A stretch of 33,349 nucleotides of DNA from a virus: positions 1 to 33,349 of IMG/VR virus record IMGVR_UViG_3300012936_002435; one strand, given 5' to 3'. A program made the translations under genes and the position numbers. This document shows positions 4,706-15,448 of this stretch, piece after piece (the first letter of the stretch is position 1; each line of letters starts with the position of its first letter). The notes under the pieces were generated by a model. That model made no database searches, was not told the origin of the DNA, and saw nothing but the letters and a program-made list of their open reading frames with translations.

Positions 4706-5240
4706 CCATCATCTCCTGGAACAGTTTTGTTGCAAACTCAAAACAAATTTTTGCTTCGTCTGCCATGTTATCATTTAACTTTTCTCTGATCGCAGTTTTT
4801 AATGCACTTGGATCTTCAAAGTCAAACATTTTGCCTGCCCCCGGAACTTTCTTACGGATCATTTGTCCTCCACTAAGGTCACCCATGTGCCTTGTGTAAA
4901 CATGAGCCATAAGTTTTTCAGGATCGGTTGATATGCTCATAATATGATCAGCATATTCTCTACTGCTTGGAGTTGTCTTTGGTGGTTCCTTGTCTGGTGC
5001 ACCTTCACCCCAAAGTTCTTGAAAGTCTTCTAATATTCTTGGTGCTCGTCTAATGTCAGGAAGTCCATTAAGAACGCCTTGAGCCATTGCACAAGTTTCA
5101 AGTATATTGTAATTAACATATTGATTATATAAGAATGTTGCGTAAAGTTTTGGATCAATAGATCCACTCATTAAAACTTTTACAAATTTTTGCCTTTCAG
5201 CATTTCTATGATGTTCGTACGTTAATTCTTTTAAACTCAT
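4683..5240 (-). CDS. Heme oxygenase, biliverdin-producing
   Basis: A 185-residue soluble all-helical protein. His11 in EHHRNAE fits the HxxAE proximal haem ligand, and GDLSGGQ (120-126) is the distal-helix signature of HO-1/HmuO-type enzymes. It opens haem to biliverdin IX-alpha with release of Fe2+ and CO, using ferredoxin or another reductant. Its start overlaps the ClpS stop (ATGA at 5237-5240), so the two are translationally coupled. With the downstream bilin reductase it forms a two-step haem-to-bilin route. Iron release from host haem is another possible benefit. Confidence 0.94.
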   Translation of the reverse strand: MSLKELTYEHHRNAERQKFVKVLMSGSIDPKLYATFLYNQYVNYNILETCAMAQGVLNGLPDIRRAPRILEDFQELWGEGAPDKEPPKTTPSSREYADHIMSISTDPEKLMAHVYTRHMGDLSGGQMIRKKVPGAGKMFDFEDPSALKTAIREKLNDNMADEAKICFEFATKLFQEMMDETESNS

Positions 5241-5536
5241 TCTTTCTCAACTCTGATCTGCAAAGGAAATCCTGTTGCTCTTGCCATTGTTGTTGCTTCA
5301 ATACTTTTTTGCTCTGCAAGTTCGTATGTATATACTCCAACAATCGCACTGCCCTCTGTATGAATTTGTAATGTTAAATTTTTTGCAGTATCTTGAGAAT
5401 GTTTAAAAACACCAACAAGCACTTCAATTACAAAATCCATAGGAGTAACATCATCGTTTAGAAAGACTACTTTAAATTGATCTGGTGTAGTAACAATTTG
5501 TTCAATTTTTTCGTCAATTAAAACTTCTGTGTTCAT
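5237..5536 (-). CDS. clpS: ClpS adaptor (N-degron recognition for ClpAP)
   Basis: A 99-residue protein matching the ClpS core: FKVVFLNDDVTPMDFV (21-36), then a C-terminal GVYTYELAEQK and GFPLQIRVE. The Asn27-Asp28-Asp29 group and His59 are the residues that bind the N-terminal amino group of N-end-rule substrates. ClpS hands such proteins to ClpAP and blocks other ClpA substrates. AGGAG lies upstream, with a late-type box at 5551-5557. It couples to heme oxygenase through an ATGA overlap. A phage ClpS could redirect host ClpAP; that is inference. Confidence 0.92.
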   Translation of the reverse strand: MNTEVLIDEKIEQIVTTPDQFKVVFLNDDVTPMDFVIEVLVGVFKHSQDTAKNLTLQIHTEGSAIVGVYTYELAEQKSIEATTMARATGFPLQIRVEKE

Positions 5537-5603: not shown

Positions 5604-6047
5604 TTATTTTACGTCGATAGTTCTTGCTTTTTTAGCCTCTGGAATAATTCTTTCCATGCTAATTTTAAGCAAACCATCTTTCAACTCAGCGCCATTTACT
5701 TGTACATCATCTGCAATAGTAAAAGATTTTGTAAAGTGTCTTTTGCTAATGCCTCTGTACTGAACGCCATCCTTTTCGTCCTGTTCATCTGTTTTGTGTA
5801 CAGATTTTACAGTCACCACGCCATCTTCGTATTGCACGTCGATGTCTTTTTTACCGAAGCCTGCAAGTGCAAGTTCGATATCGTAAGTGTAATCACCTGT
5901 TCTTACAATATTGTAAGGTGGGTAATTTGTTGTTGGAACTGAAAAGAACTCGTCATTCATCATAGATTCGAATCTATCAAAAATAGGATCGAAACCTACT
6001 GTTACGGGTCTTAGTTGATTAAAAATTGATAGGGATTTGTTTGTCAT
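5604..6047 (-). CDS. Small heat-shock protein Hsp20 (IbpA-like)
   Basis: A 147-residue protein with the alpha-crystallin domain at about residues 42-140 (PPYNIVRTGDYTYDIELALAG, then GISKRHFTKSFTI) and a short IPE-type C-terminal region. It is an ATP-independent holdase that keeps unfolding proteins soluble. Hsp20 is common in T4-like marine phages. A very strong site (AAAGGAGGAC) precedes the ATG. Both a sigma70-like promoter (6129-6157) and a late-type box (6110-6116) lie upstream, so it may be made throughout infection. Confidence 0.93.
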   Translation of the reverse strand: MTNKSLSIFNQLRPVTVGFDPIFDRFESMMNDEFFSVPTTNYPPYNIVRTGDYTYDIELALAGFGKKDIDVQYEDGVVTVKSVHKTDEQDEKDGVQYRGISKRHFTKSFTIADDVQVNGAELKDGLLKISMERIIPEAKKARTIDVK

Positions 6048-6173: not shown

Positions 6174-7316
6174 TTATGCGTAAACGGAATTAAATTGTTG
6201 ACTAACCTGAATAAACGTAGCACATTTACTCAATTGTTTAAGACCTGGTGCACCAACATAAGTGCAAGTAGATCGTAGTCCGCCCAACAGATCTTGAACA
6301 GTATGATTTACGTTACCTCTATATGGTACTTCTACAGTTCTACCTTCACTTGAACGATAGTCCTTTAAACCACCAAAATGTTTTTCATTTGCAGTATCTG
6401 AACTCATACCATAAAATTGCACAAATTGACGTTTTTCATAGTGAGGCAAATAGTTTCCATTATCTAATAAAGTTGCTTCACCATTAGCAAAATGTTTAGT
6501 AATAATATCTCCTCCACCCTGATCGTGTCCTGCTAACATTCCGCCAAGCATTACAAAGTCAGCACCACCGGCAAATGCTTTAGCAACATCGCCAGGACAA
6601 GTACAACCGCCATCAGCGATAACGTGTCCACCAAGGCCATGTGCCGCGTCGGCGCATTCGATGACCGCGGATAATTGAGGATATCCAACACCAGTCTGTA
6701 TGCGAGTAGTGCAAACACTACCAGGGCCAATGCCCACTTTAACAATATCTGCTCCATTTAATATTAACTCCTGTGTTTGGTCTCCAGTTACAACATTGCC
6801 TGCAATGATAATGATATCAGGAAATTCTGCTCTTAATTTTGCAATGTATTCTGCAAAAAACTTTGTATATCCGTTAGCAACATCTACACACAAATACTTT
6901 AAATCTGCATCACCTGTGTTATCATATACATCTTTAAACTTTTTATAGTCTGCTTCAGTAATACCAATGCTCATAGCAACACATTCAGAACGTAGTCCTG
7001 CAGGTACTTGAGGCTCTTCTTTGTAGTAATCTCTAAAGTATGCAATTAATTGTTCTGCACTATAAGTTTTCACAAGGCAAGTAAACATTGATTGTTCTGC
7101 AAGTGTGTCTGCCATTTCAAATGTACCAACACCGTCCATATTAGCCGCCATAATAGGAACGCCAATATAATCATCATGGTCTGGTAGTTTGCTTTTATAG
7201 TTTCTAAAATTAAAAGTTCTACGTACTGAAACATCTTTACGACTTCCCAGGGTTGAACGCTTTGGGCGTAGTAATACATTAGAGTAGTCAAGTTTAAGAT
7301 CCGGTTCAATTCGCAT
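6174..7316 (-). CDS. guaC: GMP reductase
   Basis: 380 residues, IMPDH/GMPR TIM-barrel family. The start at 7316 is preferred: the protein then opens MRIEPDLKL like E. coli GuaC, and GGAG lies 10 bases upstream, whereas the ATG at 7331 has no ribosome site. [11 protein letters not shown] holds the catalytic Cys (residue 202). The [18 protein letters not shown] and [10 protein letters not shown] motifs are GuaC-like, and there is no CBS insert. It converts GMP to IMP and ammonia with NADPH, letting guanine nucleotides from degraded host nucleic acid be redistributed. It overlaps the upstream oxygenase gene by 11 bases and fits the nucleotide-recycling theme with NrdA/B. Confidence 0.93.
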
Positions 7317-7896
7317 CTGATATTGCTCCATAATTAAAACTAAGGCTTATTCTATCTTGGCTTGCCTTGTTTGTTTTTACTGCATGGGGTAGCCAACCCG
7401 GAAACACTAATACATCTCTTGTATCAGGATTGATAATTTTACGTGTACCAATTACACTATTGTATTCTGCATCAACAGGCACATAATAATCTGCATCATC
7501 ATCTCTTACAAACTCTATACCGCCACTTTCTTTGTCTGGAACTTGCAAATACAAATTGCCTACTAACAATGCGTTTCTATGTTTGTGCAAATTATTATAA
7601 CCACCATGTGGATTAATGTTAAGCCAATAATTAAGTAAACTTACTTGTGGTAAACCTAATTCTCTTGATATGTTTGTCATCATATCATCTAAAAACTGCT
7701 GGATCTTCAACCCTTTAGGGATCGGAAAAGCAAATTTCATTTGGTGTTCTTGATCAAAACTCTGCCAGCCATTACAATCGTTTAAAGGATTGTCTGCTTT
7801 TAATTCATAGGCAAGATTTATAAGCCACTCAATGTCAAAGTCTTGTGGAATCTTGTCATGCCATATGGGCGTAGTAAATAGATCTATTTGTTTCAT
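7306..7896 (-). CDS. 2OG-Fe(II) oxygenase family protein (TIGR02466-like)
   Basis: A 196-residue double-stranded beta-helix protein. [19 protein letters not shown] carries the HxH-type iron-binding pair, the distal His is in FPGWLPHAV, and an Arg in DRISLSFNY would bind 2-oxoglutarate. This matches the putative 2OG-Fe(II) oxygenase family common in T4-like marine phages, substrate unknown. It is a paralogue of the next gene upstream (7893-8528), sharing the order GWQS, LPQ...N(Y/L)W, H.H, FP.WL.H and SLSFNYG, and is coupled to it by an ATGA overlap. Confidence 0.82.
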
Positions 7897-14256: not shown

Positions 14257-14330
14257 TGGCAGGCGAGCAAGGAATCGAACCTCAGTCTGTGGTTTTGGAG
14301 ACCATCGTGTTGCCACTACACCACTCACCC
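14257..14330 (-). tRNA. tRNA-Trp (CCA anticodon), CCA end encoded
   Basis: The body is 14260-14330 (71 bases) plus encoded CCA at 14257-14259. Acceptor GGGTGAG pairs with CTCGCCT (two G-U pairs). The D stem is GTGT/ACAC, the anticodon loop CTCCAAA with anticodon CCA, and the T arm TGAGG-TTCGATT-CCTTG. It begins 5 bases after the stop of the gene at 14336-14752, so it is probably cut from a longer transcript. It may support Trp codons of phage genes. Confidence 0.93.
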
Positions 14331-14752: not shown

Positions 14753-14833
14753 TTGATTTTACCTTCTCTGCCAACGGCGTTGTGAGTGCAACTATTCTGT
14801 TGCCAGGTTAGTTGCCAACCCCGTCAGCCTAAA

Positions 14834-14863
14834 TTAGGCCGCAAGTGCAAAGTTTTCGTTTGC
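14834..14863 (-). other. tmRNA tag reading frame, ANENFALAA
   Basis: GCA AAC GAA AAC TTT GCA CTT GCG GCC TAA encodes a 9-residue tag ending in the ALAA typical of ClpXP/ClpAP degrons. The resume codon is taken as GCA by analogy with other tmRNAs. The tag is shorter than typical alphaproteobacterial tags and closer to the ANDENYALAA of E. coli. Confidence 0.9.
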
Positions 14864-14919
14864 GTTTGTAGTTTTGCTTGATTTACGGTCATCGCCTACC
14901 GGCAACTCCACAGATTCTA

Positions 14920-15051
14920 TTAACTACCAGTCGATCCTATATCAGGCCCAGCATAAACACACCAGTAATGTTTCACGAAATATTCTTTCCATCTTGCGCC
15001 GTAGACTTTGATATAAGCATTTCTTAATTTATCAAATTCTTGCTTGGACAT
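14920..15051 (-). CDS. 43-codon ORF inside the tmRNA intervening segment
   Basis: An ATG at 15051, with GAGG 4 bases upstream, opens a 43-residue frame. It spans the segment between the two tmRNA pieces and ends 30 bases inside the coding piece. The product (starts MSKQEFDKLRNAYIKVYGAR, then aromatic WKEYFVKHYW) looks like an amphipathic, basic small protein and uses codons like those of nearby genes. Processing of the tmRNA precursor would destroy this frame. It may be real, regulatory or chance. Intervening segments of permuted tmRNAs are normally short and noncoding. Confidence 0.45.
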   Translation of the reverse strand: MSKQEFDKLRNAYIKVYGARWKEYFVKHYWCVYAGPDIGSTGS

Positions 15052-15136
15052 AATGCCTCGTGTGTTTATGGTGGACCTGCCCGGTACTGCCCCGGGGTCC
15101 TGTATAGCGTTTGAATTGCTTCAACGTTACAATACT

Positions 15137-15165
15137 ATTTAAGCATCTTTAGGCTGTAAAGTCAA
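15137..15165 (-). promoter_or_regulatory. Sigma70-like promoter for the tmRNA
   Basis: Minus strand: -35 TTGACT (15160-15165), 17-base spacer, -10 TTAAAT (15137-15142). The -35 lies within the end of the 99-residue gene. Transcription would begin about 10 bases before the acceptor-piece region. Confidence 0.65.
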
Positions 15166-15448
15166 CCTCTTTTTTAACTTTTTGCTTTTGTTTTGGTTGC
15201 CTAATTGGTTCTAACCAACTATCAGCAATGTAGGCTTGTGGACTTGGGCCAAGGCTTGTCTTGATATCGTCTGCTTCTATCCACCAGTAGTGATCTGTAA
15301 TGACACATTGGCAAGGCATTCCTCTAAATTGGAATTGTTCATTAGCATTAAACTTACCTATATACTCTTTAACCTTTACAATACGTCCAATGTTCTCGGG
15401 ACGAATAGAAAAGACTATATGAGCAAGGTCACCTTGTTCACATTTCAT
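15149..15448 (-). CDS. Conserved phage hypothetical protein
   Basis: A 99-residue, probably beta-rich protein: GDLAHIVFSIRPENIGRIVKV, EYIG, and HYWWIEADDI are patterns seen in small phage hypothetical proteins with an SH3- or KOW-like barrel. The tail is Lys/Gln-rich. Function unknown. It follows the cold-shock gene by 20 bases, and its end contains the -35 of the tmRNA promoter. Confidence 0.68.
   Translation of the reverse strand: MKCEQGDLAHIVFSIRPENIGRIVKVKEYIGKFNANEQFQFRGMPCQCVITDHYWWIEADDIKTSLGPSPQAYIADSWLEPIRQPKQKQKVKKEVDFTA

Follow-up and report, generated by a model that had tools for sequence, protein, structure and literature searches.

The DNA analysed here, referred to below as the window, is a 33,349-base IMG/VR virus record (IMGVR_UViG_3300012936_002435) that represents a fragment from a T4-like marine phage. 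Its NrdB shares 65–67% identity with the NrdB proteins of T4-like marine phages, among them Pelagibacter and Synechococcus phages. One gene for a guanylate/adenylate cyclase catalytic domain lies on the plus strand (97–1266), and the minus strand carries genes for a heme oxygenase, here on a T4-like phage (4683–5240), ClpS (5237–5536; Pfam 4.4e-29), Hsp20 (5604–6047) and an IMPDH/GMP reductase (6174–7331). A tRNA-Trp gene (14257–14330, minus strand) is located near the tmRNA gene which is the subject of this work; in three relatives (L124, L138 and L187) it lies just downstream of the tmRNA.

The tmRNA gene, on the minus strand, is a complete, phage-borne gene of the permuted (two-piece) alpha type. 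A first-pass annotation, made from the letters alone, had proposed such a gene and named a search with the Rfam alpha_tmRNA covariance model as its check. This search gave a significant match at 15169–14785 (RF01849, 110.8 bits, E 1.2e-29), and the tmRNA_permuted model matched at 15130–14834 (RF04321, 116.5 bits, E 2.4e-22); both matches are full length, without truncation, and far over the gathering scores. From the Rfam alignments and the sequence, the acceptor piece occupies 15069..15130 (5′ end approximate) and includes a T arm (CCCGGGGCAGTACCGGG, 15096–15080), the acceptor 3′ strand CAGGTCC (15079–15073) and an encoded CCA (15071–15069). The coding (mRNA-like) piece, 14785..14949 (3′ end approximate), begins with GGGCCTG at the predicted RNase P site. 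CAGGTCC and GGGCCTG (14949–14943) form an acceptor stem of 7 bp, including one G-U, between the two pieces. The tag frame (14834..14863), GCA AAC GAA AAC TTT GCA CTT GCG GCC TAA, specifies ANENFALAA followed by UAA, with an Ala resume codon and a hydrophobic -ALAA end, and the sequence downstream of the tag is also aligned by the Rfam model. The T arm, CCA and inter-piece stem, the ends at 15069 (CCA) and 14949 (start of the coding piece) and the intact tag frame at 14863–14834 all agree with the earlier annotation.

That annotation also assigned the gene its own promoter. A sigma70-type sequence, TTGACT-17-TTAAAT, overlaps the 3′ end of the upstream gene (15137..15165, minus strand), 68 nt before the CCA end. 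Taken alone the window copy is weak (9/12), but its position is kept in most phage tmRNA genes: sites scoring at least 10/12 occur in 254 of 349 unique phage tmRNA loci compared with 3.6% of shuffles, and nearly all of these conserved sites lie 65–75 nt before the CCA end. The assignment is thus upheld by sequence together with conserved position. Since the position is conserved, the transcript probably begins at the acceptor piece, and products encoded further along, between the two pieces, would depend on the tmRNA promoter.

The window gene was missed by ARAGORN, which was erratic on its relatives, finding some phage tmRNA genes and missing others whether their spacers were short or long; alone, it is unreliable for permuted tmRNA genes of phages. 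No meaningful close DNA match to the window tmRNA was found in annotated phages; a 31-nt mycobacteriophage match, discarded, amounts to 6% of the query and falls inside an annotated protein gene. Two-piece tmRNAs in phages have already been published: PMC9004378 counts 53, of which 50 are marine or aquatic, so that a permuted tmRNA on a phage is not new by itself. Among them are those of Methylophilales phage Melnitz and Pelagibacter phage Mosig which, as described there, resemble the window in carrying a permuted ssrA gene on a T4-like marine phage, a promoter just upstream and a tag ending in ALAA. Their tags differ from that of the window, and the part of PMC9004378 drawn on here describes no protein gene in a spacer. 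The alphaproteobacterial permuted tmRNAs (RF01849), including those of SAR11, also share the window's architecture, and SAR11 tags are short and end in ALAA. In one related phage (L143, 2771–3155), the same gene position is occupied by a beta-type tmRNA (RF01850, 93 bits) instead of the alpha type.

The earlier interpretation stood as regards the permuted alpha-type phage tmRNA, its promoter and its intact tag; its argument from the tag proved weak and it missed the protein-coding segment described below. It had held that the short, ALAA-ending tag differs from longer alphaproteobacterial tags, so that tagged proteins might be treated differently from those tagged by the host. SAR11 host tags, however, are also 9 aa long and end in ALAA or AIAA (ANESYALAA, ANESYAIAA and ANNKVALAA), so that tag length was rejected as a phage-versus-host distinction for SAR11-type hosts. 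ANENFALAA itself occurs in 0 of 385 alphaproteobacterial genomes and is common to related phages; of the 57 syntenic relatives that were parsed, at least 20 have it. One phage tag (L194, ANESYALAA) is the same as a Pelagibacter host tag (L283), and the spacer of this phage locus contains a sequence resembling a tRNA T arm. Some phage tmRNAs (L089, L045, L204 and L577) have tags of about 24–30 residues, such as ANDNASNVFSFVDFSNARKYVNEDFALAA, far longer than usual. ClpS, encoded elsewhere in the window, is an adaptor which redirects ClpAP and in E. coli competes with the degradation of ssrA-tagged proteins. Degradation could be biased by a phage that has a ClpS as well as a tag of its own, and control of ribosome rescue during infection is a plausible role for a phage tmRNA.

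The most unusual feature of the locus is the segment separating the two pieces. This spacer, or intervening segment (IVS; 14950..15068, minus strand), is 119 nt long and is bounded by a terminal inverted repeat, TAAACACAC / GTGTGTTTA, which adjoins the acceptor stem. A Shine-Dalgarno-like (SD) GAGG (15056..15059) precedes an ATG at 15051, the start of a nested ORF of 43 codons (14920..15051, minus strand; product MSKQEFDKLRNAYIKVYGARWKEYFVKHYWCVYAGPDIGSTGS) whose core lies in the spacer and whose last residues and stop (14920) lie in the tmRNA coding piece. A tblastn search of the phage collection gave no match to this ORF; its relatives were found in IMG/VR with degenerate, back-translated DNA patterns. 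The same ORF is present in the spacers of three contigs (L204, L205 and L206, the last two with the same spacer), with 86% protein identity. A more distant copy occupies a 98-nt spacer in a tmRNA gene with yet another tag (L371), and a fifth contig (L614) carries a homolog as a free-standing gene of 34 aa whose ATG overlaps the stop of the preceding gene. The stop of this free-standing gene falls exactly where the window ORF meets the predicted cleavage junction. The family is small, with four distinct spacer sequences and one free-standing copy. One pattern match (L613) was dismissed as a chance hit, and another candidate (L385), which had joined only through a shared tail, was discounted.

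Could this frame have arisen by chance in an otherwise ordinary two-piece phage tmRNA whose spacer serves only as a structural hairpin? Related phages with a tmRNA at the same locus have spacers of 31–39 nt and no ORF, so that the tmRNA can do without the ORF, and a hairpin of the spacer ends is conserved whether or not the spacer is coding, as such a reading would have it. The substitutions argue against it. The window and L205 spacers are 91.6% identical at the nucleotide level although the coding pieces of the two tmRNAs share only 60%; for L204 the values are 89.9% and only 40%, and the tags differ too. Between the window and the free-standing homolog, 18 of 29 nucleotide differences fall at codon position 3 (p=0.0014). 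The pN/pS of the family (family 7) is 0.32, an estimate which included the doubtful member L385. By sequence comparison the spacer ORF of the window is a gene under coding constraint, with predicted translation. With free-standing homologs to be accounted for as well, and in view of the survey below, we regard a chance frame as very improbable.

To place the window among other phages, we parsed permuted tmRNA genes in several scans. A first pattern scan, made without selection on spacer length, yielded 110 phage tmRNAs; 49 of their 110 spacers were at least 90 nt long, and 22 of these 49 contained SD-led ORFs. Adding three further scans limited to long spacers gave 454 parsed loci in all, with 347 unique spacers; because spacer length and end sequence were selection criteria in these three, frequencies can be taken only from the first scan. 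We counted ORFs that are SD-led, start within the first 30 nt of the spacer and span it. Such ORFs are present in 114 of the 256 unique phage spacers of 95–300 nt, where dinucleotide shuffles predict 2.7, and in none of the 256 read on the reverse strand. In the unbiased first scan alone, 19 of 44 spacers have an SD and ORF, against 0.42 expected. The start codons cluster 10–23 nt after the CCA. The ORFs form about 40 families, most of them unrelated to one another, and each of the 22 families with more than one member has a pN/pS below 1 (mostly 0.06–0.5). Most loci are on metagenomic contigs, though the four Melnitz isolates agree; ten ORF-bearing phage loci, in addition to that of Melnitz, were confirmed as tmRNA by Rfam.

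Several cases connect these spacers to known phages and proteins. In isolate Melnitz a 142-nt spacer contains an SD-led ORF (product MFKWLSKTRLVV...) which is unannotated, hidden under the SsrA feature, and which has homologs in other phage spacers. The protein of another family (FAM1) is found inside spacers in many phages, and in isolate Melnitz its gene is free-standing directly upstream of the tmRNA. The spacer of L572 encodes a PGDYG-domain protein whose relatives are standalone genes in hundreds of phages. The Mosig tmRNA has a short spacer without an ORF. Part of the longer spacers are non-coding by the SD-ORF criteria, and some of these are probably structured RNA. That long spacers without an SD-led ORF are structured RNA found no support in general, fold z-scores being alike in coding and non-coding spacers; many 'non-coding' spacers belong to coding families and have weaker SDs. 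Families of apparently non-coding, probably structured spacers were also noted (L174, L374 and L386; L022 and L426), and the apparently structured spacers matched no Rfam family.

Bacterial tmRNAs provide a comparison. The spacers of 103 bacterial loci have a median length of about 29 nt, and 0 of the 8 that reach at least 60 nt contain an SD-led ORF. In 129 Pelagibacterales genomes the whole tmRNA match measures only 181–191 nt, which leaves spacers of roughly 7–15 nt; these SAR11 host spacers, unlike that of the window, hold no ORF. Additional genes in removed parts of a tmRNA precursor do have precedents. Homing endonuclease genes lie in group I introns of tmRNA genes; in PMC11915505, the current tmRNA database paper, with 79 phage sequences, the spacer contents mentioned are one tRNA-Ala, in a permuted tmRNA, and one repeat, with no protein genes. 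What is carried there is either a homing endonuclease, in a self-splicing intron, or one tRNA, whereas the phage spacers hold many unrelated small proteins and are thought to be excised by tRNA-processing enzymes. We found no account of ORFs in tmRNA spacers in open-licence PMC text.

The spacers also appear to move between tmRNAs. By the criteria applied, we found 250 pairs with near-identical tmRNA bodies and unrelated spacers, a count that includes very short spacers and non-independent pairs. One pair has flanks 92–94% identical around spacers of 33 and 80 nt (L155/L163); in another, downstream sequences 99.9% identical accompany spacers of 106 and 164 nt (L176/L187). In the other direction, among 563 pairs whose spacers are similar, the tmRNA bodies match poorly in 268. 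Given near-identical tmRNAs with unrelated spacers and the reverse, the spacer behaves as an exchangeable cassette. The same mosaic pattern would be expected if the spacer were a selfish or mobile element for which tmRNA genes offer a safe place to insert, an explanation we hold to be improbable: no resemblance to a recombinase or homing endonuclease was seen in any of the ORFs scanned, the families are mostly unrelated to one another, and the mosaicism would be accounted for by homologous exchange at the conserved ends. A terminal stem of at least 8 bp occurs in 57 of 61 phage IVSs of the unbiased scan, against 5 expected, and this stem could serve both RNA processing and recombination.

We consider it very likely that the locus is a permuted phage ssrA gene in which the intervening segment also houses a gene for a small protein. 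The tmRNA, the position of its promoter, the coding constraint on the nested ORF and the exchange of cassettes can be read from comparison of the sequences; the processing, translation and tagging of the window product are predictions from the same data. The sigma70-type promoter would give rise to one precursor containing, in order, the acceptor piece, the spacer ORF and the coding piece. Processing at the CCA and at GGGCCTG would free the spacer and leave a two-piece tmRNA, and the spacer, closed by its terminal inverted repeat, would also act as an mRNA. Ribosomes entering at the GAGG just after the CCA would translate either the precursor or the released spacer into the small protein. On the uncut precursor the window ORF would continue into the coding piece and end there after 10 codons. 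In this family, however, the predicted RNase P cut lies within the reading frame, so that the cleaved message would have no stop codon and its product would become a substrate for tagging by the tmRNA.

The window ORF recalls arfA, whose non-stop, RNase III-cleaved mRNA is controlled by tmRNA (PMC3985003), in that predicted processing would leave it stopless and make its product a tmRNA substrate. It differs in being encoded within the tmRNA precursor itself, and none of the searches run indicated a relation to ArfA. The precedent invites a stronger version of our explanation, according to which RNase P cleavage deliberately strips the stop, so that tagging leads to destruction of the small protein as long as tmRNA is active, and the protein builds up only when trans-translation is saturated. 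The predicted junction lies inside the ORF in 4 of 4 spacer-borne members of the window family, and the free-standing copy stops exactly there. Of the 40 ORF families, 13, about a third, run past the predicted RNase P site, but 17 stop inside the spacer and 10 use the TGA of a conserved tail, TTWTGAT, so that two thirds end within the spacer. Moreover, the conserved tail together with the coding piece gives near stops in all frames. Because several families (2, 4, 10, 17 and 19) mix stop-inside and run-past states, stop loss was rejected as a general design, and we judge the deliberate loop unlikely, if less so than insertion by a mobile element.

The small-gene housing proposed for the window may have a wider counterpart, which we put forward tentatively, at somewhat less than even chances: phage permuted tmRNA precursors would be bifunctional, one promoter giving a rescue RNA and an mRNA; the spacer would serve phages generally as a site for cassettes of small protein genes; cleavage would set the balance between the two; and in some families the non-stop message would be policed by the phage's own tmRNA.

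The spacers of permuted tmRNAs have, to our knowledge, so far been treated as discarded RNA. Our comparisons point to hundreds of aquatic phage tmRNA genes with long spacers, many holding different, exchangeable small genes. If phages do house small genes in this way, annotation pipelines overlook a whole set of phage proteins, as in Melnitz, and the spacer rule predicts the location of about 40 small phage protein families. The maturation of a stable RNA and the translation of an mRNA would then compete on one transcript, and the levels of tmRNA and small protein would be linked during infection. The locus would also offer a naturally occurring example, open to testing, of RNA processing that would deprive a message of its stop codon.
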